Shown here piece by piece: positions 1 to 46,218 of a stretch of DNA of 48,805 nucleotides; the stretch's first letter is position 1, and each line of letters opens with the position of its first letter. This stretch comes from Oscillospiraceae bacterium. Lineage in GTDB: Bacteria; Bacillota; Clostridia; Oscillospirales; Ruminococcaceae. The stretch lies in assembly GCA_009783695.1 (NCBI GenBank), contig WRCY01000012.1, positions 1 through 48,805 of the forward strand. The letters run 5' to 3'. The notes under the pieces were generated by a model. The model was given only the letters and a program-made list of their open reading frames with translations, was not told the origin of the DNA and made no database searches. The translations under genes and the position numbers were made by a program.

Positions 1-232
1 CAGGGAACGGAAAGTATCGTTTTCCCCGATTTTGAATTACTTATTTTCAAATTCTAATAAAGCCTTTTCGTTGCGGGCAGGGAACGGAAAGTATCGTTTT
101 CCCCGATTTTGAATTACTTATTTTCAAATTCTAATAAAGCCTTTTCGTTGCGGGCAGGGAACGGAAAGTATCGTTTTCCCCGATTTTATATTACTTATTT
201 CCAAACTTTATATCTCTTGTTTCCTTTAATTT
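1..232 (-). repeat. Tandem leader repeat, 77-bp period, locus C
   Basis: Two full 77-bp units and a diverged third unit lie in tandem. The core CGGGGAAAACG, read on the minus strand, falls at 18-28, 95-105 and 172-182. Each unit starts with a TTTGAAAATAAG-like block and carries a weak inverted repeat after the core (GGAAA paired with TTTCC). The array lies downstream of the minus-strand promoter at 245-273, so it should form the 5' UTR of a gene left of the window. The first two units are identical over 77 bp and the third differs in the A/T block. It belongs to the same family as the leaders at 3147, 28204, 32968, 39321, 42108, 42400, 44278 and 46121. Its function is unknown. Confidence 0.85.
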
Positions 233-3146: not shown

Positions 3147-3300
3147 GTTTTTATTAAGTCCCTTCTTCACCAACGGGAAATTAAATGTCCGTTTTCCCCG
3201 ATTCGATTTTATTTATTTTCAAACTTGTTTTATTAAGTCCCTTCTTCACCAACGGGAAATTAAAATGTCCGTTTTCCCAATTAAATATTTTATTTTAAAA
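3147..3300 (-). repeat. Duplicated leader repeat, 79-bp period, locus B
   Basis: Two units with 79-bp spacing precede the PsiE-like gene. The proximal core CGGGGAAAACG is at 3190-3200 and the distal degenerate core TTGGGAAAACG is at 3270-3280. Each unit ends in GAAGAAGGGACTTAATAAAA, so the ribosome binding site is part of the repeat. In the proximal unit CGGG(G)AAA can pair with TTTCCCG about 12 nt later. The core lies 43 nt before the chosen start codon, matching other loci. The distal copy has decayed in its A/T block. Confidence 0.85.
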
Positions 3301-3359
3301 CTTTTTCTCCTCGCCGAACGCACAGCGCGCCAAAAGAATTTCCCGTCACGGACAGGTAA

Positions 3360-6139: not shown

Positions 6140-6703
6140 ATGAAAGCACCGGGCAAAAATTTTATAAAGATTCCGAGTATTTTTTACATTATAGCCGGCG
6201 CGGGCGCATTATTAATAGCATTATTCGGTATGGACATAATACGTGATTTAGGTAACTTCGGCAACACATCGCGCGGGTTCTATGTATACTGGGGTGTAAT
6301 AGGTACTTTTTATCTTGTTATGGGGATTATGGGTATAAAATTCTGCAACAGCACTCATAAAACAACGGCGCTTATCGCTCTCGCCGTTTTTGATATGCTT
6401 ATAGTGGTTTCCAATATGTATGTGCATTTCCCGGCATTGGACAGCAGTTTGGGAAATGCAGTTACGTTTAAATTTGACTTCTCGTTTATTACGCTCCTGG
6501 GATTTGTCCTGCCCGCCCTGTATTTAATAGGCGCGATTAAAAATAAGAATTACGTGAACCCGACGACACAGTATTACTCATACGATGATAACCTGCGCTC
6601 AAATTATAACCCGCTTCCGATAGCCACCTGGACCTGCGTAAAGTGCAAAGTACTGAACGAAATGGACGCGAATTTCTGCAAGGGCTGCGGCGGTCATAGG
6701 TAA
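6140..6703 (+). CDS. Four-helix membrane protein with C-terminal zinc ribbon
   Basis: A 187-residue protein that I cannot assign to a named family. Four hydrophobic segments are visible near residues 10-30, 47-68, 75-95 and 113-135. They are followed by a hydrophilic tail ending in WTCVKCKVLNEMDANFCKGC. That tail is a CxxC...CxxC zinc ribbon of the RanBP2/double-zinc-ribbon kind, predicted cytoplasmic. The gene stands alone with its own promoter and a shared terminator at 6717-6748. AAGGGGAC gives a plausible ribosome binding site. A sensing or scaffolding role is only a guess. Confidence 0.7.
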   Translation: MKAPGKNFIKIPSIFYIIAGAGALLIALFGMDIIRDLGNFGNTSRGFYVYWGVIGTFYLVMGIMGIKFCNSTHKTTALIALAVFDMLIVVSNMYVHFPALDSSLGNAVTFKFDFSFITLLGFVLPALYLIGAIKNKNYVNPTTQYYSYDDNLRSNYNPLPIATWTCVKCKVLNEMDANFCKGCGGHR

Positions 6704-7665: not shown

Positions 7666-7691
7666 GTTTCATCAAATCCTTTCTTCAGCTA

Positions 7692-7950
7692 ATATAGTTG
7701 ATTAACTTGAAAAACCGCTTTGCGGTTTTTCCGACAAGCAAAGCTTGCCGCTCGTACTTTAAGCGCGTAATCAACTATATAATCAAATTAAGCTGCTGCG
7801 CGGCGACCGCCGCACATTGAAAATGCTAACGCATTTTCAAGTTAATTGATTATAGTATATCACATGAATATGACAACCGTGTGTCATATATGAAAATATA
7901 TTATTATAATCAATTAACTTCAAAAATGCGTTAGCATTTTTCAAGTTAAT
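7692..7950. repeat. Nested palindrome cluster upstream of the WYL gene
   Basis: Three modules are seen. Module 1 is bounded by a perfect 13-bp inverted repeat (7692-7704 with 7768-7780) and contains AAAAACCGC-TTT-GCGGTTTTT (7710-7730) and CAAGC-AAA-GCTTG (7735-7747). Module 2 is bounded by TATAATCAA (7778-7786) and TTGATTATA (7846-7854). It contains GCGGC-GACC-GCCGC (7800-7813) and GAAAATGC-TAAC-GCATTTTC (7819-7838). Module 3 is ATTAACTT...AAGTTAAT (7913-7950) around AAAAATGC-GTTA-GCATTTTT (7922-7941). Modules 2 and 3 share sequence in opposite orientation. Modules 1 and 2 fall in the predicted 5' UTR of the WYL gene. Confidence 0.8.
7849..7889 (-). promoter_or_regulatory. WYL gene promoter with overlapping palindrome
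   Basis: On the minus strand TTGTCA (7871-7876) and TATAAT (7849-7854) are 16 bp apart. A perfect palindrome, ATATGACA-6 nt-TGTCATAT (7868-7889), covers the -35 box and is a good operator candidate. Confidence 0.6.
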
Positions 7951-21950: not shown

Positions 21951-23042
21951 ATGAAAAAAACTCTTAGACTGACATTAATAACGGGCATAATCTTCACTTT
22001 ACTTATTTCTGCAACAGGTCTCACGGCGTCGGCATCGTGCCCGCTGACAAGCCTCTTTAACAGAGGTTCAGGCAGTCCGTTCGGGAATTTCGCCTCATTC
22101 TTCGGCGGAGGCGGCTCGAACAGCAACGCAGGAAGCTGTCCGATTTCCAAGTTCTTCGGGAATAACATGAACTTCTTCAACAAAGGAAGCAATAGCAGCA
22201 CAAACAATTCCTGCTTTCCCTTTAACAACACGGCGAATAATTCCTGCACAACCAACAATTGCAGCACAAATAATAACTGCACAACCAATAACTGCAATGC
22301 AAACAACAGCTGCACAACAAACAACTGCGTAATCAACAACTGCACAGGCAGTAATTGTTTACCCGCAGATAACTGCACAACTAACAACTGCATAATAAAC
22401 GACTGTAAAGGCAGTAATTGTTTACCGGCAGATAACTGTACAACTAACAACTGCATAATAAACGACTGTAAAGGCAGTAATTGTTTACCGGCAGATAACT
22501 GTACAACTAACAACTGTATAATCAATAACTGTACAGGCAGCAATTGTTTACCCGCAAACAACTGCCCGCCCGCGAATAACTGCACAACTAATAACTGCCC
22601 TCCCGCGAATAACGACTGCAGCGTAAACAACACCTGCCCGCCCGAGCCCGACAAACCCGCGGAACAGCCGCCTCAAGTTTGCTCTACATATGCCGAGGAA
22701 GTTTTAAAATACGTCAACGAAGCGAGAACGAGCAGAGGGCTTTCCGCACTCAAGCTTGATGAAAACCTCTGCGCCGCTGCTGAAGTGCGCGCAACGGAAG
22801 TCCTCCGCCGCTTCTCGCACACCCGCCCCGACGGAACAAGCTGCTTCACGGTTCTCCGCGATTTCGGCATTGGTTACAGAATCTGCGGCGAAAACATCGC
22901 CAAGGGCTTCAGAGATGCGCAGTCTGTGGTAAATGCGTGGATGAATTCTTCCGGACACCGCGCAAATATCCTGAACCCGAGCTACACGCACATGGGCGTA
23001 GGCAAGGACGGCACAGGCTGGGGACAGTTGTTTATCGGTTAA
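21951..23042 (+). CDS. Secreted CAP-domain protein with Cys/Asn repeat region
   Basis: A 363-residue exported protein. A signal peptide of about 29 residues ends TGLTASAS. Residues about 85-235 are a Cys- and Asn-rich repeat with Cys every 4-5 residues (units such as NNCTTNNC, CKGSNC and CLPADNC). The C-terminal ~125 residues are a CAP/SCP-PR1 domain (YVNEARTSRGLSALKLDENL, then HTRPDGTSCF, GENIAKGF and AWMNSSGHRANILNP), similar to YkwD-type proteins of spore formers. I chose the ATG at 21951, with GGAGG 5 nt upstream. The Cys repeats could cross-link or bind metal at the surface or spore coat. This role is inference. Confidence 0.9.
   Translation: MKKTLRLTLITGIIFTLLISATGLTASASCPLTSLFNRGSGSPFGNFASFFGGGGSNSNAGSCPISKFFGNNMNFFNKGSNSSTNNSCFPFNNTANNSCTTNNCSTNNNCTTNNCNANNSCTTNNCVINNCTGSNCLPADNCTTNNCIINDCKGSNCLPADNCTTNNCIINDCKGSNCLPADNCTTNNCIINNCTGSNCLPANNCPPANNCTTNNCPPANNDCSVNNTCPPEPDKPAEQPPQVCSTYAEEVLKYVNEARTSRGLSALKLDENLCAAAEVRATEVLRRFSHTRPDGTSCFTVLRDFGIGYRICGENIAKGFRDAQSVVNAWMNSSGHRANILNPSYTHMGVGKDGTGWGQLFIG
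22305..22556 (+). repeat. 63-bp coding tandem repeat
   Basis: Four units with exact 63-bp spacing (unit starts at 22305, 22368, 22431 and 22494). The third and second are nearly identical. Each codes 21 residues with four Cys. The reading frame is preserved throughout. Recent amplification within the CAP gene is likely. Confidence 0.88.
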
Positions 23043-26355: not shown

Positions 26356-28200
26356 ATGAAACTGCTTCGTAAATCTTTGCTGTTAGTTCTTCTCTCGCTC
26401 GTGATTCTGCTCGGCGCATGCAGCGAAAAAAGCGCAGAGCGCGACAATCCCGACGACCCCGGGCTCACAATCGGCGAGCTCCGCGCAATGCCGATTACAG
26501 ATTTGACCGCGCTTGAGATGGCGCGCATCATGGGTCACGGCGTAAACCTCGGAAACACCATGGAGGCCTGTGACAGCTCGGAACGTATTCCCATGCGTGA
26601 AACGAGCGTTTATGAAACCATGTGGGGGAATCCCGTTACCACGCGGGCAAGCATCGATGGCATGAAAGCCGCAGGCTTCTCGACTCTGCGTGTCCCCGTT
26701 GCATGGACTAACGCAATGAACTTTGCGGTCAATAACGAGCTTGACTATGAAAACTGGGACTTTACAATCGACCCGCGGTACTTAGACCGTATTGAGGAAA
26801 TAATCGGTTATGCAATAGACGCGGGTATGATTGTTATCGTAAACAATCACTGGGACCACGGCTGGTGGAGCATGTTCGGGCATCCCGAGCAGGAAATACG
26901 CGACCTCGCAATGGAAATTTATACGACAATGTGGACGCAGATAGCCGAAAGATACAACCATTTCGACGGGCGGCTGGTGCTTGAGTCGGCGAACGAAGAG
27001 CTCGGCAACCGTCTCAACGACAGGACGCCGTTTACCATGATTGACGGCGTCATGACGCCGGGCACGCTCACTGAAGACGAGTGCTACGAAATGACGACAA
27101 AAATCAACCAGACATTCATCGACACAGTGCGGGCAACAGGCGGTAATAACGCCGAGCGTTTCCTGCTTGTCAAGGGTTACAACACGGACGTTATCAGAAC
27201 TATGGACGACAGATACGTTATGCCTGTTGACCCAGCGAACAAGCTCATACTCGGTGTACATTACTATACCCCGTGGGGATACTGCGGCGATCAGGCGGGC
27301 GTAACCGCTTGGGGAACAACTGCCGAAGTCGAGGAAATGAATAATCTTCTCGGTATGCTCTCAAAGTTCACCGAACAGGGCTACGGGATTCTGCTTGGCG
27401 AGTGGGGCGTTCTTGACAATGTCGGCGACGACAGATACAGCTTCTTCACAAACTTCCTTGCACTTTCCGACAAATACGGCTACGCGACTACTTTATGGGA
27501 TACGGGCGGCTTGTATTGCAGAACTGCGTATCAAATCAAAGCCCGCCGTGACGACGACCCTGCGATTGATAAGATAGCAGCGCTGTTTAAGTCGCTGTGC
27601 GTGGAAACGCGCGCAGATATGACAATTACTGAAATTATTGCATATGCTGAAACTGTTCTCGCTGCGAATCTCACTCGTGCGGCAGACAGACCGATGTTTG
27701 AATACACTGCAGATGAGGCGTACGCCTGGATAATGTTCAACAGCAGCTCCTGGGATATGGAATACAGCGTGGGCGACATATACAGACCGGAAAGGATTGC
27801 TGCCGGTATTGTACCTACCGACGCTGAGATTACCGGCGCGGGCACTTATACAGTGGCTCTCGACTTCACAGGCACCGAAAACGGTCACGCTGCGGGAATA
27901 GCGTTCTCCGCGCTGGCAATCATGAACGGCGAAACCCTGTGGCCCGGCTATATAATTGAGTTTACTGAAGTGCTGATTAACGGCGAACCGGCAGTAATTA
28001 CGGGAGAGCCTTACACCACTAATGACAACCCCACCACCACAAGGGTAAATCTTTACAACGAATGGGTCAGCAGCATAGACACTGAAGCGGGAAGAACCGT
28101 CAGCGGGCACTTTGACGACGCTACGGCGAGCCCTCTTATCAGCTACATCTCAGCGCCGATTGAAACGCTTGTTATTACGTTTGATTTCTACGAGAGATAA
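26356..28200 (+). CDS. GH5 endoglucanase/xyloglucanase lipoprotein
   Basis: A 614-residue secreted lipoprotein (lipobox LLGAC, Cys about residue 22). The GH5 barrel covers about residues 45-420. Features are the opening GHGVNLGNTMEACD, the LRVPVAW strand, VNNHWDHGWW, the acid/base Glu in ESANEELG (about E214), HYYTPWGYCG, and the nucleophile Glu in LLGEWGV (about E349). The pattern fits GH5_4, a subfamily rich in xyloglucan-active endo-beta-1,4-glucanases. The C-terminal ~120 residues (about 490-612) repeat the module of the surface protein, including RVNLYNEWVSSI. It begins a run of transport and glycosidase genes. Xyloglucan specificity is inferred from the locus. Confidence 0.9.
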   Translation: MKLLRKSLLLVLLSLVILLGACSEKSAERDNPDDPGLTIGELRAMPITDLTALEMARIMGHGVNLGNTMEACDSSERIPMRETSVYETMWGNPVTTRASIDGMKAAGFSTLRVPVAWTNAMNFAVNNELDYENWDFTIDPRYLDRIEEIIGYAIDAGMIVIVNNHWDHGWWSMFGHPEQEIRDLAMEIYTTMWTQIAERYNHFDGRLVLESANEELGNRLNDRTPFTMIDGVMTPGTLTEDECYEMTTKINQTFIDTVRATGGNNAERFLLVKGYNTDVIRTMDDRYVMPVDPANKLILGVHYYTPWGYCGDQAGVTAWGTTAEVEEMNNLLGMLSKFTEQGYGILLGEWGVLDNVGDDRYSFFTNFLALSDKYGYATTLWDTGGLYCRTAYQIKARRDDDPAIDKIAALFKSLCVETRADMTITEIIAYAETVLAANLTRAADRPMFEYTADEAYAWIMFNSSSWDMEYSVGDIYRPERIAAGIVPTDAEITGAGTYTVALDFTGTENGHAAGIAFSALAIMNGETLWPGYIIEFTEVLINGEPAVITGEPYTTNDNPTTTRVNLYNEWVSSIDTEAGRTVSGHFDDATASPLISYISAPIETLVITFDFYER

Positions 28201-28203
28201 GAG

Positions 28204-28351
28204 TTTGAAAACAAATAAATCCGACTCGGGGAAACATTGTTTTCATTCCACTTTTTTGAGGAAAGGACTTAATGAGAACAAGTTTAAAAATGAATAAAAC
28301 CGAATCGGGAAGAACGTTGTTTTCATTTCACTTTTGTGAGGAAAGGACTTA
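28204..28351 (+). repeat. Duplicated leader repeat, ~80-bp period, locus A
   Basis: Two units stand between GH5 and the permease gene. Cores are at 28227-28237 (CGGGGAAACAT, diverged) and 28306-28316 (CGGGAAGAACG). Both units end in GAGGAAAGGACTTAATGA, so ribosome site and ATG are duplicated together. The second unit's ATG (28352) starts the permease. The sequence after each core forms the inverted repeat GAA(A/G)AC...GTTTTC in the better copies of the family. The first unit begins 3 bp after the GH5 stop, so the element is intercistronic. Confidence 0.85.
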
Positions 28352-28352
28352 A
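28272..28352 (+). CDS. Possible 26-residue leader peptide coupled to the permease
   Basis: Because the leader is duplicated, the first copy's ribosome site and ATG also open a frame. It runs from ATG 28272 for 26 codons (MRTSLKMNKTESGRTLFSFH, then FCEERT) and ends at TAA 28350-28352. That stop overlaps the permease ATG by one base. If the permease start is used, the identical signal before 28272 should be used as well. No function is known. It may be only a by-product of duplication. Confidence 0.45.
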   Translation: MRTSLKMNKTESGRTLFSFHFCEERT

Positions 28353-29812
28353 TGAAAATAATTATGACGGAAAAGGCGCGTAATTGGGCAGTATTGGTGA
28401 TTATACTGCGGGTATTTATACTTTGGGTATGCCTGGCGGCGTTCTTGCCAATCCTTAATCCCGCGCGGGTAAGCGAATTAATATCCGAAAACTATTCGCT
28501 GTTCACCTGCGCTGTTTCACCCTCGGCGACAAGCTCGCACTTTGAGCGCGCCCTGCTGCCGAGAAACGCCCATTGGGGACTTGAACAATCGACAGTTTCC
28601 ATCATATATAACGGGGCGTTTGTCGCGGGGCTCGCTATAATCGGGCTCGGCACTGCGGCGTGCTTCAGTCTGGGGAATATAAAAATGCGCCGCTTCGGTG
28701 CAATGATTTCGGCGGGCTCAGCTGTTTTGGGAATCGCGGGCGTTACAATCCTGCGCTCTACATACGGAATTCTGGCTTCTATTAACGAGCCCGAGCGTGT
28801 CCGCCCGATGATACCGGGCGGTATTACCGCGTTTTACATCATGTTCGTGCTCGTTATAATACTGTCCGCCGCCGTCTTTCTCGTGCTCCCGAAGCCCGAG
28901 AAAGGCACGCGCATGGCGATGGACGCAAAATACAGGCTGTTTCTGATGATGCTGCCGTTTTTGGTGTTGGTTGCACTGTTCGCCTATCTGCCGCTTTTCG
29001 GCTGGCGCTACGCGTTTCAAAGCCCGGTTGAGCTTGAAAACTCCGACCCGTTTTACTGGTTCAAGTTCCTTTTCACCAACCGCGGAGTCCGCATGGATAT
29101 ACCGCGGGTGATGACAAACACTTTCGCAATGAGCGGAATCGGAATAGCCACGGCATGGCTTCCGATGGTGTTCGCCGTTTTCCTTGCCGAAATGAAAGCT
29201 AATAGACCAAGGCATGTGGTTCAGACGCTCACCACAATCCCGAACTTTATAAGCTGGATACTCGTTTACAGCGTGGCTTTCGCGATTTTCTCAACGGAGG
29301 GATTCTTTAACTGGATGCTCGCGAATATAGGCGTCATTGAATCCCTACCGGGGCCCGCCCATCTGATGGACAGCAGACATATCTGGCTCAAGATGTGGTT
29401 GTGGGGAACGTGGAAAGGACTCGGCTGGAGCGCGATTATTTACATCGCGGGCATTTCAAGCATCGACCCGCAGCTTTATGAGGCCGCGACGGTTGACGGC
29501 GCGGGGCGCTTCCGGCGAATGTGGCATATAACAATTCCGGGCCTGCTATCGACGTTCTTTGTGCTTTTATTGCTGTCGATTGCCAATATATTATCAAACG
29601 GCATGGAGCAGTACTTCGTCTTTGAAAACCACATGAACAGGGGAACGATTGAAGTGCTGGATTTATACATATACAACACAGGAATCGGCTCAAACTCTCC
29701 AAATATACCGCTCGCAACCATAGTCGGGATGTTCAAGACCATCATCAGCGTGACGCTGCTGTTTACTGCGAACAGAGTTTCCAAGTGGCTGCGCGGCGAA
29801 ACGATAGTGTAG
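28352..29812 (+). CDS. LplB-type sugar ABC permease with 4-helix N-terminal extension
   Basis: A 486-residue permease. Residues about 190-485 are the usual LplB/YtrP-type binding-protein-dependent transport domain (YRLFLMMLPFLVLVALFAYL; EAA loop LYEAATVDGAGRFRRMWHIT). Typical LplB proteins have about 310 residues. The extra ~175 residues carry about four hydrophobic segments (near 13-33, 85-107, 113-135 and 160-180) and an acidic/polar loop. The partner permease has a comparable extension. It lies downstream of leader A and 11 bp before the partner. It likely imports oligosaccharides released by GH5. Confidence 0.9.
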   Translation: MKIIMTEKARNWAVLVIILRVFILWVCLAAFLPILNPARVSELISENYSLFTCAVSPSATSSHFERALLPRNAHWGLEQSTVSIIYNGAFVAGLAIIGLGTAACFSLGNIKMRRFGAMISAGSAVLGIAGVTILRSTYGILASINEPERVRPMIPGGITAFYIMFVLVIILSAAVFLVLPKPEKGTRMAMDAKYRLFLMMLPFLVLVALFAYLPLFGWRYAFQSPVELENSDPFYWFKFLFTNRGVRMDIPRVMTNTFAMSGIGIATAWLPMVFAVFLAEMKANRPRHVVQTLTTIPNFISWILVYSVAFAIFSTEGFFNWMLANIGVIESLPGPAHLMDSRHIWLKMWLWGTWKGLGWSAIIYIAGISSIDPQLYEAATVDGAGRFRRMWHITIPGLLSTFFVLLLLSIANILSNGMEQYFVFENHMNRGTIEVLDLYIYNTGIGSNSPNIPLATIVGMFKTIISVTLLFTANRVSKWLRGETIV

Positions 29813-32930: not shown

Positions 32931-32967
32931 TAATTAGCAAAAGACTTATGATTTCCCCGTTTTGAAG

Positions 32968-33324
32968 CGGGAAAACGAAGCATTAAAAAGAACACTTTAA
33001 AGAAAGGACACACAAAAACCTTACAATTATCCGTGGTGAAACGGGGAAAACGAAACACTAAAAAGAGCACTTTTAAAGAAAGGACTCACAAAAACCTTAC
33101 AATTATCCGTGGTGAAACGGGGAAAACGAAACACTAAAAAGAGCACTTTTAATGAAAGGACTTACAAAAACCTTACAATTATCCGTGGTGAAACGGGGAA
33201 AACGAAACACTAAAAAGAACACTTTTAAAGAAAGGACATACAAAAACCTTACAATTATCCGTGGTGAAACGGGGAAAACGAAGCATTAAAAAGAACACTT
33301 TTAAAGAAAGGACATATATAAAAT
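32968..33324 (+). repeat. Five-copy leader repeat, 76-bp period, locus D
   Basis: Cores lie at 32968-32977, 33042-33052, 33118-33128, 33194-33204 and 33270-33280, with 76-bp spacing (75 for the first pair). Units 2-5 share CCGTGGTGAAACGGGGAAAA, where CCGT and ACGG can pair around GGTGAA. Each ends in an AAGAAAGGAC ribosome-site sequence, but only the last is followed by a start codon (33325, 44 nt after the core). Units differ by single bases (for example AAAG versus AATG). There are no unique spacers, so this is not CRISPR. It lies between the binding-protein and GH31 genes. Confidence 0.9.
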
Positions 33325-39320: not shown

Positions 39321-39410
39321 GATTATTTCATTAAGTCCTTTCTTCACAAAAGTGGAATGAAAACAACGTTTTCCCCGATTCAATTGTGTTTATTTTCAAA
39401 CTTATTCCTT
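39321..39410 (-). repeat. Leader repeat, single copy, locus E
   Basis: A complete family member on the minus strand: AGTTTGAAAATAAAC, then ATTGAATCGGGGAAAACG (core 39367-39377), the inverted repeat GAAAAC-GTT-GTTTTC, then ATTCCACTTTTGTG and GAAGAAAGGACTTA. It is close to copy A2 (28300-28351) along its whole length, although the genes downstream are unrelated. Confidence 0.88.
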
Positions 39411-40550: not shown

Positions 40551-42107
40551 TCACATCAAGCTCTTCATCACGACCGGCAGAATCTCCGCAATATCCCCCG
40601 CCATAATCCCCGAAAGCGCAACCGTTTTCGCGAGCTCGTCGGCAGTAAGTCCATGCAGATAAACGCCGAGCATCGCCGCCTCGAGCGGTCTTACTCCCTG
40701 CGTGATAAAAGAGGCAATCATACCCGTCAGAACATCGCCCGAGCCCCCTTTTGCCAAGCCGGGGTTGCCCGTGATATTGATGAAAACCCGCCCGTCGGGA
40801 GCAGCTACGACCGTATTTACGCCCTTTAGTACCGTGACTGTGTTCCACTTTTTTGAGAAGTCGCGGGCGTGTCTTATGCGGTCGGATTGAATCTCCTCGA
40901 CGGACATGCCGGTAAGCCTGCTGAACTCCAACGGGTGCGGCGTAATTATCCGAAGCCTGTCATTTTCCTCTAAGACATTTATATTAAGGCTCAGCAAATA
41001 TATTCCATCTGCATCTAAAATAACAGGACAATTGCAGTTTTTGAGCACAACCTCTACCATTTCCCAGACGTGCTGGGTAATGCCGAGCCCGCAGCCGAGC
41101 GCAACAGCGTTAAACGCGAAACCCGCAAGCCTGCTCTTTACGGTTTCCGCTGATTCGCCGTCCGCGAAGCCGTCAGCGTCCGCATAAAGCGGCAGGTACG
41201 TCGCCTCGGGAACTGCTGAGGCAATCGCACGGCAGACTTCACGCACGCTTGCAAGCGTGACAAGTCCCGCACCGCACTTAAGCGCGGCTTTGGTGGAAAG
41301 CAGCGCGGCGCCGATACACTGCTCGCTTCCAGCAATATTAAGCAGCCTGCCGTAATTGCCCTTGTGCGAGCTTTTTTTACGCGCCGGAATCTGCTTAAGA
41401 ATATCCTCGTCTATGAATACGCCCTCATATTCTTCGTAGCAGTCGTCGGGGATTCCTATGTCGAGCAGCACCAAATCCCCACACGAATCAAAAGCCGGGT
41501 GTGAGAAAAGTCCTTTCTTCGCTGCGCCGAGCATGAAAGTGACATCGGGAAGAAACGCCCGCTCTGCCATTTCGCCCGTGGTGGAGTTAATGCCGCTCGG
41601 GACGTCAACGGATATTTTAAGCCCCTCAAAGCTCGTGTTTATGAAGCGGAAAAGCGCAGCCAGCCGCGGCTCAAGCTCACCTATAAAACCTGTTCCGAAC
41701 ACGCAGTCGACGACCACATCGCAGTTGGTGAGCGCCTGCTTGACTACGTCCTCGCGGTGGGTGTAGAGCGCGGTGTCAAGGGCGACACTTTCGCTGCCGC
41801 CATGCACGCAGTACTTGGTATAATTTTCCCGGGCACAGGCGGAGTTCGGCAAATCCGTCACGAAAATGCAGAGCACCATTCCGCCGTTTTCGCGGATTTT
41901 ATGCGAGAGGACAATCCCGTCACCGCCGTTGTTTCCGCGCCCGCACAAGACGACGAAAGCTTTGTCTTTTACGTCGCCGAATATATGCACAAGCTGCCTG
42001 TAGCAGGCGGCGCCCGCGTTATCCATGAGCGCAGAGAAAGTAATCCCCTTGCGGTCGGCGTTCTGCTCCGCTTTTTTCATTTGTGCCGCAGTGACAATAT
42101 ATTTCAT
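40551..42107 (-). CDS. nnr: Bifunctional NAD(P)H-hydrate epimerase/ADP-dependent dehydratase
   Basis: A 518-residue metabolite-repair enzyme. The N-terminal epimerase (YjeF_N, about 1-215) shows MDNAGAACYRQLVHIFG, the VLCGRGNNGGDG loop and VDVPSGINSTTGE. The C-terminal dehydratase (about 225-515) shows AALKCGAGLVTLAS, VILDADGIYLLS and the ADP-site GNPGLAKGGSGDVLTGMIAS. It restores damaged NADHX/NADPHX. The start is probably ATG 42107, with GGAAGGAC upstream. The frame stays open through the proximal leader to an ATG at 42191, giving a possible 546-residue form whose extra 28 residues come from the leader. Confidence 0.94.
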   Translation of the reverse strand: MKYIVTAAQMKKAEQNADRKGITFSALMDNAGAACYRQLVHIFGDVKDKAFVVLCGRGNNGGDGIVLSHKIRENGGMVLCIFVTDLPNSACARENYTKYCVHGGSESVALDTALYTHREDVVKQALTNCDVVVDCVFGTGFIGELEPRLAALFRFINTSFEGLKISVDVPSGINSTTGEMAERAFLPDVTFMLGAAKKGLFSHPAFDSCGDLVLLDIGIPDDCYEEYEGVFIDEDILKQIPARKKSSHKGNYGRLLNIAGSEQCIGAALLSTKAALKCGAGLVTLASVREVCRAIASAVPEATYLPLYADADGFADGESAETVKSRLAGFAFNAVALGCGLGITQHVWEMVEVVLKNCNCPVILDADGIYLLSLNINVLEENDRLRIITPHPLEFSRLTGMSVEEIQSDRIRHARDFSKKWNTVTVLKGVNTVVAAPDGRVFINITGNPGLAKGGSGDVLTGMIASFITQGVRPLEAAMLGVYLHGLTADELAKTVALSGIMAGDIAEILPVVMKSLM

Positions 42108-42267
42108 ACTTTCAATAAGTCCTTCCCTTACCGGCGCGCTTTTAAGCAACGTTTTCCCCGATTCAGCAGCGCTTGAAAGAGGCCCTTGCATACCCCTTAT
42201 ACCGGCACGCTTTTAAGCAACGTTTTCCCCGATTCAGCAGCGCTTGAAAGAGGTTCTTGCATACCCC
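42108..42267 (-). repeat. Duplicated leader repeat, 71-bp period, locus F
   Basis: Two units lie between the 43-residue gene and nnr. Cores are at 42150-42160 and 42221-42231, 71 bp apart. Both read GAATCGGGGAAAACGTTGCT. The A/T block typical of other loci is replaced by ATGCAAGAACCTCTTTCAAG-like sequence. Only the proximal unit ends in the GGAAGGAC ribosome site. The core is 42 nt before the nnr start. Confidence 0.85.
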
Positions 42268-42399
42268 TTATTTTTTCTTCTTTTTATCGATAACCGTCAG
42301 CACGATTAAAACTGCCAGCGCGACCGCGGCGACTGCGACCCCGACACCGAGCCCTACGCCGGTAGCGGGGTTCATGTCCATAATTGCTGCTTCAATCAT
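42268..42399 (-). CDS. 43-residue single-pass membrane peptide
   Basis: A short gene: MIEAAIMDMNPATGVGLGVG followed by a hydrophobic Val/Ala helix (VAVAAVALAVLIVLTV), then DKKKKK and TAA. One transmembrane helix of about 25 residues with a positive tail is clear, so the tail should face the cytoplasm. The start at 42399 has GAAAGGAC upstream and stands 40 nt after the core of leader G. It lies between pgm and nnr on the same strand. I do not recognise the family. A small helper subunit, toxin-like peptide or membrane regulator are all possible. Confidence 0.72.
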   Translation of the reverse strand: MIEAAIMDMNPATGVGLGVGVAVAAVALAVLIVLTVIDKKKKK

Positions 42400-42478
42400 T
42401 TTCTTAAGTCCTTTCTTCATAAAATCGGAATGAAAACAACGTTTTCTCCGGTTTTATTTATTTTAACCTGTTTGACGT
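42400..42478 (-). repeat. Leader repeat, single copy, locus G
   Basis: The unit begins 5 bp after the pgm stop. The core has one change (CGGAGAAAACG, 42440-42450), followed by the inverted repeat GAAAAC-GTT-GTTTTC, ATTCCGATTTTATG and GAAGAAAGGACTTAAG. It leads into the 43-residue gene. Confidence 0.85.
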
Positions 42479-42483
42479 GCTTT

Positions 42484-44277
42484 TTACTTGAAAAACCTGA
42501 ACATTTCGGCTGCAAGTTTTTCGCGAATCGTTTCCGCCTCCTGCTGCGTCTTGCCTACTGTCGTGTAATAAACTTTAATCTTGGGTTCCGTTCCCGACGG
42601 GCGCACGACAACGGTTGCGCCGCCGTCAAGCCCGAATATAACCATGTTGGTTTTCGGCAGGTTGATTGAGGTTTCCGCGCCGCTCGCAAGGTCAAGCTTC
42701 ATGCCCGACTCAAAGTCGCTGAACGTCATGACTTTAATTCCTGCGATTTTGCGCGGGTAGTTTTCAGGAGCGCGCAGCCCCTTCATTATTTTTCCCATTT
42801 TTTCCATGCCGGAGGCGCCCTCAAAGGCGAAATTATCGACAGAATCATTAAAAACGCCGTATTTTTCGTACATGTTTGCGCGCGCCTGTATGAGCGAAAT
42901 GCCTTTTGAGCGGTAAAACGCCGCCATCTCGCAGATAAGCATAGACGCGACAACCGCGTCCTTATCCCGCACATACGTGCCCGAAACATAGCCGTAGCTC
43001 TCCTCGAAGCCGTAGAGAAAACGTTCCTCCCCGCCTGTCTTTTCAAGCTCCGCGACCACGCCGCAGATGTTCTTGAAGCCGGTGAGCGTGGTTATTATTT
43101 CAACGCCGTACTCCCTGCCGACTTCCTCGGTTAAGGTCGTTGTGACGATTGATTTCACAGCAATGGGATTTGCGGGCATAGTGCCTGTTGCGATGCGTTC
43201 CCGCGCGATGTATTCAAGCAGCATGACGCCGGTTTCGTTGCCCGAAAACAACACATAATCGTCCCCGTCAGCACCGCCGTCTTCGGCAGTGCAGGGAACT
43301 GCAATTCCTACTCTGTCACAGTCTGGGTCGGTGGCGAGCAACAGGTCGGGCTTCACCTCTTTGCATAGTTTTAGCCCGAGCTCCAGCGCTTCCTTGAACT
43401 CGGGGTTCGGATACGGGCAGGTCGGGAAGTTACCGTCGGGGTGTTCCTGCTCCGGCACGACGGTGATGTTGGTAATGCCTATATCGCTGAGAATCCGGCG
43501 CACGGGTTTATTCCCAGCGCCGTTGAGCGGCGTAAAGACGACTTTTAAGCCCGCTTCAAGGCTGGATTCAGGGTGAATCGCCTGCTTTTTAACCTCATCG
43601 TAATACGCTTCTGCGACCTCGTCTTCAATGTAGCTGACCAAGCCGCGTTCAAGCGCGGCTTCAAAGTCCAGCGACTTTATACCGTTGAAAATATCGAGCT
43701 TGCCGCAGATTGCAAGCACGGCGTCGGCGACCTCCGAGCCGATTTGGCAGCCGTCCGCACCGTAAGCCTTGTAACCGTTGAACTTAGCGGGATTGTGGCT
43801 TGCGGTGACGTTAATGCCCGCGTCGCACTTCAGGTACCGCACTGCAAAGCTCAGCATCGGCGTCGGCATAAGCTCGCGGTACATATGCACTTTTATGCCG
43901 TTTCCGGCGAGCACTTCCGCGGCTGTCCGAGAGAAGTAGTCTGATTTTATTCTGCTGTCGTATGCAATCGCCACGTACGCCGGTGCAAGGGGGGTATTTC
44001 CGTTTTCGCAAACGGAGGACTTGCATCTTCTTTGTTCATTAATATAATCAGCGAGCCCCTGCGTGGCTTTTCTGACCGTGTAATAGTTCATGCGGTTAGG
44101 ACCTGCGCCGATTACGCCGCGAAGACCCGCCGTGCCGAATTCAAGCTCGCGGTAGAACCTGTCGAGTATAGCGTCACCGTCGCCCTCAATTTCGCGCAGT
44201 TCCGCAATTAAATCGGGGTCGGACTTGGCGTTTTCGCACCATAATCTATAGTTTGCGTTTAATACTTCACAATTCAT
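42484..44277 (-). CDS. Phosphoglucomutase (alpha-D-phosphohexomutase family)
   Basis: A 597-residue enzyme that interconverts glucose-1-phosphate and glucose-6-phosphate (or the mannose pair). Motifs are FGTAGLRGVIGAGPNRMNYY, the phosphoserine loop VTASHNPAKFNGYKAYG, the metal loop LATDPDCDRVGIA, the sugar loop YGFEESYGYVSG, and the phosphate-binding VVRPSGTEPKIKVYY. Length and order match PgcA/YbbT-type enzymes of Bacillota. It should channel glucose-1-phosphate from the nearby GH94 phosphorylase into glycolysis. It is driven by the promoter at 44386-44414 through leader H and heads the pgm-43aa-nnr-lipoprotein run. Confidence 0.95.
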   Translation of the reverse strand: MNCEVLNANYRLWCENAKSDPDLIAELREIEGDGDAILDRFYRELEFGTAGLRGVIGAGPNRMNYYTVRKATQGLADYINEQRRCKSSVCENGNTPLAPAYVAIAYDSRIKSDYFSRTAAEVLAGNGIKVHMYRELMPTPMLSFAVRYLKCDAGINVTASHNPAKFNGYKAYGADGCQIGSEVADAVLAICGKLDIFNGIKSLDFEAALERGLVSYIEDEVAEAYYDEVKKQAIHPESSLEAGLKVVFTPLNGAGNKPVRRILSDIGITNITVVPEQEHPDGNFPTCPYPNPEFKEALELGLKLCKEVKPDLLLATDPDCDRVGIAVPCTAEDGGADGDDYVLFSGNETGVMLLEYIARERIATGTMPANPIAVKSIVTTTLTEEVGREYGVEIITTLTGFKNICGVVAELEKTGGEERFLYGFEESYGYVSGTYVRDKDAVVASMLICEMAAFYRSKGISLIQARANMYEKYGVFNDSVDNFAFEGASGMEKMGKIMKGLRAPENYPRKIAGIKVMTFSDFESGMKLDLASGAETSINLPKTNMVIFGLDGGATVVVRPSGTEPKIKVYYTTVGKTQQEAETIREKLAAEMFRFFK

Positions 44278-44362
44278 ATTCCAACTATGTCCTTTCTTGA
44301 TAAACGCGGTATGAAAACAACGTTTTCCCCGATTCGCGAGGATGTTGTTTTAAATTAAACCT
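44278..44362 (-). repeat. Leader repeat, single copy, locus H
   Basis: On the minus strand a TTTAAAACAAC block precedes GCGAATCGGGGAAAACG (core 44321-44331), the inverted repeat GAAAAC-GTT-GTTTTC, a locus-specific ATACCGCGTTTATC and AAGAAAGGACATAG before the pgm start. It sits wholly within the 5' UTR made from the 44386 promoter, showing the element is transcribed. Confidence 0.87.
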
Positions 44363-46109: not shown

Positions 46110-46218
46110 GGAGGAATAAAACTTGAAACTAAATCCTCGTAAACCGGGGAAAATGCTGTTTCAAAGCACTCAAGTGCAGAAAGGATACGATGAATATGAA
46201 CTACGGCTATTTCGATGA
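46110..46218 (+). promoter_or_regulatory. Leader I with possible upstream ORF
   Basis: The core is a variant, CGGGGAAAATG (46145-46155), followed by TGTTTCAAAGCACTC and CAGAAAGGATA before the GH94 start. GGAGG (46110-46114) stands 8 nt before a TTG at 46123 that opens a 31-codon frame to TGA at 46216-46218, overlapping the GH94 start in another frame. The TTGAAA...GGGGAAAA spacing matches other loci. Translation of this frame is unproven. Confidence 0.6.

Follow-up and report, generated by a model that had tools for sequence, protein, structure and literature searches.

The leader that is repeated before unrelated genes in the window (the whole stretch of 48,805 nucleotides that was analyzed) is probably a miniature mobile element, some 80 nt long, which inserts by preference into the gap that separates the Shine-Dalgarno sequence (SD) from the start codon. 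An insertion into this gap should normally cripple the gene, and a spare SD brought along by the insert would avoid the harm. The window is contig 12 of a draft genome (G000, 2.23 Mb, 94% complete). The genome contains 342 exact matches (186 + 156) to the core of the leader, CGGGGAAAACG, against 2 for the reversed pattern, which shows that the repetition is real. Within the window there are 12 exact core matches, and 53 with up to two mismatches, compared with 22.2 expected in shuffles. The sequence-only model R1, which was built from 61 non-redundant units, gave 19 matches in the window at E<=0.1: 18 units in nine arrays, the same numbers of cores and loci as in the preliminary description, and one weak remnant (Table 1). 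The leaders H, G and F, which that description had placed before pgm, the gene of a 43-residue peptide and nnr, are confirmed. The window also has, at 22236-22613, tandem repeats of 15-63 bp that are nested and contain ACAACTGCA/ACAACTGTA motifs.

A sample of 448,805 bases of the same genome, consisting of the window and 400 kb of further stretches (L009-L028), gave 227 R1 matches at E<=0.1 and 216 matches at E<=0.01 with an HMM. These stretches were partly picked for containing matches, and exact cores are about 1.5x denser there than genome-wide. Extrapolation through the exact cores, of which the sample holds 105 of 342, suggests a genome total of about 700 units at about 450 places. Of these 105 exact cores, 79 are intergenic, although 89% of the sample is coding.

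Table 1. Units, arrays and neighboring genes in the window
Feature	Position	Strand	Remarks
Unit H, before pgm	44284..44358	-	left block, core 44321-44331, SD GAAAGGAC
Unit G, before 43-residue gene	42399..42466	-	core variant CGGAGAAAACG at 42440-42450
Unit F1, first of two before nnr	42201..42246	-	
Unit F2, before nnr	42110..42175	-	
pgm	42484..44277	-	PGM_PMM domains I-IV
43-residue gene	42268..42399	-	between pgm and nnr; likely membrane peptide, hydrophobic (from translation)
nnr	40551..42107	-	YjeF_N + Carb_kinase
Unit E	39326..39406	-	commonest subtype; SD-like GAAAGGA 2 nt before left end
Unit I, before GH94 gene	46116..46194	+	
Array D, before GH31 gene	32941..33322	+	five units of about 76 nt
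Array C, before transport permease gene	28199..28357	+	two units
Array B, before 129-aa ORF without Pfam match	3149..3306	-	two units
Array A	10..210	-	three units, last one cut by contig end
Weak remnant, before 305-aa ORF	7667..7701	-	SD half only, no core

Boundaries and position of the unit

The unit is bounded. Its left end is AAGTTTGAAAATAA, the core is flanked by a variable stretch on the left and a variable middle on the right, and after GAAGAAAGGACTTAATGAAAAT comes the start codon; an SD of its own, GAAAGGAC, stands at its end just before the start codon. Among 98 arrays, 71 have a recognized SD and start (two of them being core matches inside genes), and in 63 of these 71 the first base of the core lies 51-56 nt before the start codon, in accordance with the 34-46 nt given earlier when the distance is measured from the core end. 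Tandem units are most frequently spaced by 76 nt (14/40). The edges were examined on 62 unlinked pairs with at least 58/68 identical bases: on the left, identity drops from 0.92 at -25 to 0.60 at -27 and 0.37 at -28, and at the right edge it is 0.87 at +52 but 0.40 at +55, so that outside about -26..+53 dispersed near-identical units are without common flanking homology. Because unlinked copies can be as much as 68/68 identical, tandem duplication is not their only source. Some features count against a mobile element. No terminal inverted repeats were seen by eye, the ends AAGTTTGAAAATAA and TTAATGAAAATAA being alike directly and not inversely, no target-site duplication was seen by eye in clean junctions such as L118 and L069, and G000 gave no match to the mobilizing enzymes searched (Y1_Tnp, RVT_1 and IS110 DEDD).

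Arrays end at a gene start in 158 of 170 cases from several species, compared with 36% of random positions and 23% of intergenic positions in G000. Left ends close to the consensus are present in 46 of 87 first units, and in 38 of these 46 an SD-like word occurs no more than 18 nt away, as it does at 17% of 5000 random positions; the other eight have none. In 29 of the 38 the word is situated at 2-9 nt and in nine at 12-14 nt; seven of these nine follow an earlier unit and two do not. When flanks were compared with empty orthologs, 36 of 130 comparisons, which reuse sites across species and are not independent, were recognizable (>=17/30 bases). The TTG of the unit falls within -3..+5 nt of the native start codon in 24 of them and at another offset in 12, and the cleanest flank (L118) has 29/30 bases and offset 0. 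As judged from these alignments, the old SD lies on the left of the unit and the start codon on its right.

Filled and empty sites

Most sites that are filled in G000 are empty in relatives. No unit was found in the orthologs from G023 (23/23), G017 (15/15), G020 (14/14), L118 (15/16), G074 (13/14) and G012 (23/33), where the counts refer to orthologs found in sampled loci, those of G012 and G074 being partly picked for matches. An SD word is present within 18 nt of the start in 19 of the 23 empty sites of G023 and in 22 of the 23 of G012; three of the latter and two of the former resemble SD halves and may be remnants or native SDs. The reciprocal situation was also observed: G012 (L069) has a unit after GGGAGGAA at a site that is empty in both G000 and G023, and of four G074 sites three have no unit in G000, one of these three perhaps holding a remnant. 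Upstream of unit H there are a promoter-like TTGACA..TATCAT and an older SD-like GTGAGG; in G023 this promoter-like stretch also precedes pgm, and between it and the start there is GGAGGG but no unit. The 43-residue gene of G023 runs directly into nnr, array D corresponds there to a plain SD and ATG, and at the site of unit I the order GGAGGAATAAAAC, TTG has its counterpart in GGAGGAATTTTAC, ATG. On the evidence of these alignments, the relatives show that the leader is an insertion. Sequence related to the 43-residue gene is found at the same place in G023 and G012.

Several shared sites hold different subtypes (e.g. L011 18570 and L012 10218), so a gene start may have received the element on two occasions. 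Of twelve comparisons of shared sites, those with a core match in the copy of G000 (seven) were scored, with identities of 84/84 in the SD, 66/77 in the core, 121/154 in the middle, 115/182 in the left part and 94/133 in the upstream flank. The core being more alike than the left part speaks against a mobile element. In G000, 12 of 62 SD halves before gene starts have no core-like word upstream according to the core pattern used, at least three of them being one-base core variants and some perhaps native SDs. This, together with the 84/84 at shared sites, makes the SD the best-kept part of the unit.

The proposed course of events is as follows. Moving as DNA, the element would shift the native SD about 80 nt upstream upon insertion, and as its last part consists of an SD of its own (GAAAGGACTTA) and a brief A-rich spacer next to the start codon, the gene would stay translatable, presumably from the new SD. 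The old SD would then be free to decay, while the SD of the element would become the ribosome-binding site (RBS) of the gene under selection and the rest of the element would drift. Arrays would arise by local tandem duplication and sometimes by a second insertion.

No start is nearby in 12 of the 170 arrays, two of which lie at stretch or contig ends, the others being partial or unexplained apart from two convincing copies at gene ends. The first is found in hpf (S30AE family), where the unit comes after the last codons (ACA AAG GAT, ..AAAGGAT) and provides the stop codon, followed by a terminator-like hairpin; hpf has no unit there in five relatives, and in G023 such a hairpin comes after the stop codon. 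The second comes after GGGAGGAAAA (TGG GAG GAA AAA) of a small gene without Pfam match and before a terminator-like hairpin, and a paralog of this gene in G000 has no unit. Both terminators were read by eye. Since neither copy precedes a gene start, an SD-like word alone seems enough as a target, and the target may be the SD word itself. One rather doubtful idea on how this could work is that the element targets via the SD, for instance by an anti-SD-like guide pairing or through the 16S rRNA tail on the initiating ribosome. Wherever an SD is exposed, a false one at a gene end included, the element would then land as far from it as a start codon would stand. This would, if true, add a new principle to the ways in which mobile DNA is targeted. 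A half unit in L012 (minus strand, sense ~6190-6400) adjoins a stretch like the 3' end of the upstream gene and is apparently a local duplication at a gene end.

The same two copies bear on another explanation, namely that the leader is a strong RBS cassette spread by leader recombination and kept for raising or evening translation, with no dedicated mobile element involved. It would account for the complete conservation of the SD segment at the scored shared sites, and the likeness within arrays suggests local duplication. However, the copies after hpf and the small gene give no gene a new RBS, and the shared homology needed for homologous conversion is missing outside the edges of the unit. 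We regard this explanation as unlikely.

Distribution in the genus and search for a mobilizing enzyme

Model matches at E<=0.001 were found in 13 of 71 genomes of the genus, with at least 77 in G000, 69 in G074, 67 in G006, 65 in G012, 59 in G020, 31 in G050 and 29 in G052; the remaining six have at least three, at least two and, in four genomes, at least one match. Loci from G003, G006, G020, G049, G050 and G052 have the same unit anatomy and the single match of G023 is a unit before a gene, while the matches in G004, G015 and G083 do not look like units. Of 80 loci around secY, L185, L118, L119, L138, L153 and, weakly, L150 gave matches at E<=0.1. In the secY tree G000 is grouped with the unit-poor G023 (99/87), so losses in G023 would be needed. 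A tree of 17 genes places G000, G023 and G012 nearly in a trifurcation (85/81 with protein, 83/81 with DNA), which is compatible with loss in G023 as well as with gain in G000 and G012. Phage, plasmid and viral collections gave no match to one 81-nt query of the common subtype or, for the viral scan, to one exact pattern.

Two other repeats were met in these genomes. In G020 (L071, L072), several genes among the ribosomal protein and secY orthologs are preceded by another insert, unrelated to the unit and placed between an SD-like GAAAGG and the ATG. It carries inverted repeats rich in GC (..GTGCCGC ... GCGGCAC/GCGGCAT..), and a stem there could bring the SD and start together. In G023 and G017 (L085, L040) palindromic repeats like GTAGGGGACGCC..GGCGTCCCCTAC precede genes; these belong to a different family.

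As regards a mobilizing enzyme, Y1_Tnp has no match in G000, G012, G074, G006, G050 and G052 and one weak match in G020, while matches are present in the unit-poor G014, G009 and G019. RVT_1, the reverse transcriptase that a group II intron or another retroelement would need, was not found in G000, G006, G020, G050 and G052; it is present in G012 and G074 and in the unit-poor G023, G017, G014 and G013. The DEDD transposase of IS110, an element guided by a bridge RNA, is found in five of seven unit-rich genomes (G074, G006, G020, G050 and G052) as opposed to two of nine unit-poor ones (G017 and G010), which makes it a lead for the mover, though it is absent from G000 and G012. The negatives in G000 are not final because its assembly is incomplete, as given above. 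With regard to an autonomous parent, no long copy was noticed among the partial model matches in the 449 kb sampled.

RNA structure and comparison with known systems

The preliminary description had proposed control by a trans-acting small RNA or RNA-binding protein that recognizes the core in many mRNAs. As a regulon, this would mean that the factor controls translation and that the units are kept for regulation. What stands is the modular unit before many unrelated genes at a fixed distance. The near-invariant core, whose conservation is overstated since detection is biased towards it, and its near-constant spacing to the start codon (63 of 71 arrays) would fit such a regulon. So would L012, a 20 kb region of G000 with genes for SecY, L2, L22, L6, L14, L30 and IF-1, which has 24 matches and 15 of 17 arrays ending at a gene start, meaning that many genes of the ribosomal protein region carry the unit.

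No RNA fold stood out clearly. RNAalifold gave 0 pairs on 61 units and 0 on 42 units from more species, i.e. no consensus fold; a separate script run with different settings folded the 42 units weakly (-3.3 kcal/mol). The hairpin between core and middle, GAAAAC-GTT-GTTTTC, is present in some units, but the pairing said to be preserved with different bases is not borne out, since shuffled partners equal or beat it in 465 of 500 cases. This hairpin shows no covariation, and a conserved RNA structure is not supported. The hairpin pairs in 78.8% of cells compared with 40-68% for versions slid by 1-3 columns, which a nearly invariant core would give. Complementarity between left block and middle, which is weak, is better within units than between them (9 of 1000 permutations were as good, and 5 of 2000 in the first set), with a mean p of 0.044 over 30 clusters and of 0.51 over 9. 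A three-helix fold was suggested by one subtype, and on a set enriched for this subtype its covariation score was met by 13 of 500 shuffles; family-wide support is weak and is gone with the 9 clusters. Folding is on average slightly better than in shuffles (mean z -0.91 over 61 units), 4 of 16 single folds having z below -2, the lowest -3.56, and 14 of 61 with a simpler shuffle. The likeness of the core at shared sites and the weak complementarity could point to some RNA function.

Other observations weigh against the regulon as an account of the whole pattern, which it explains poorly. The units are lineage-specific insertions that G023 lacks at all the orthologous sites compared, some cores have disappeared or changed without loss of the SD, two units precede no gene start, and the SD halves without a core match (12 of 62, with the one-base variants and possible native SDs included) weaken the case for a regulator that binds the core. 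A regulon is thus quite improbable, and a mobile element that brings its own SD is the reading we prefer.

It is also unlikely that the unit encodes a peptide. A coupled leader peptide, with a short ORF running from TTG over the core to a stop over the SD, was considered since the commonest subtype has such an ORF (TTG..SGKT..ERT-stop) overlapping the SD, in the frame that stays open the longest towards the 5' side (median -40, against -18 and -2 for the other frames). Against it, an in-frame start is missing from 67 of 132 core matches, the 62 near-identical pairs have identities of 0.880/0.878/0.884 at the three codon positions with no third-position excess, and one-base indels separate some copies, which makes this explanation very improbable. 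Most genomes compared are draft assemblies with short contigs, but an assembly or binning artefact can practically be dismissed, as eight further genomes of the genus (G012, G074, G006, G020, G050, G052, G049 and G003) have units of the same anatomy next to unique genes.

If the leader is indeed a mobile element, the 450 places estimated by extrapolation in one genome, many gene starts of the ribosomal protein region included, amount to a natural experiment on the replaceability of ribosome-binding sites, and raise the question of how a mobile element could recognize an SD. They also warn against taking every leader that is repeated before unrelated genes for a regulon. In a literature search, mostly of open-access journals, we found no recognizable description of this element or of insertion targeted to the SD.

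The unit shares its 5' leader position with riboswitches and ribosomal protein leaders of Rfam, and some copies precede ribosomal protein genes; it differs from them in the lack of a consensus fold and in preceding many unrelated genes. As had been said of named riboswitches and leaders, no Rfam family matched where tested, with only tRNAs in the window at gathering score and nothing at E<=5 over L027:5500-6700. REP/REPIN elements, which are moved by RAYT, i.e. IS200-like transposases, are likewise hundreds of short, dispersed, mainly extragenic units without a gene of their own (PMC3116915). Unlike them, the present units have an SD as their last element and occupy the gap between SD and start, without a Y1_Tnp match in G000, and in place of an imperfect palindrome as core they have no clear common palindrome and the weak complementarity of left block and middle. 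MITEs are short non-autonomous insertion units in many copies. The units resemble them in length and copy number and differ in that terminal inverted repeats and target duplication were not seen by eye and that no autonomous parent was noticed in the 449 kb. The small dispersed repeats of cyanobacteria are reportedly very small mobile repeats as well, with an unknown mover, and to our knowledge they are not tied to gaps between SD and start codon, as the units described here are.
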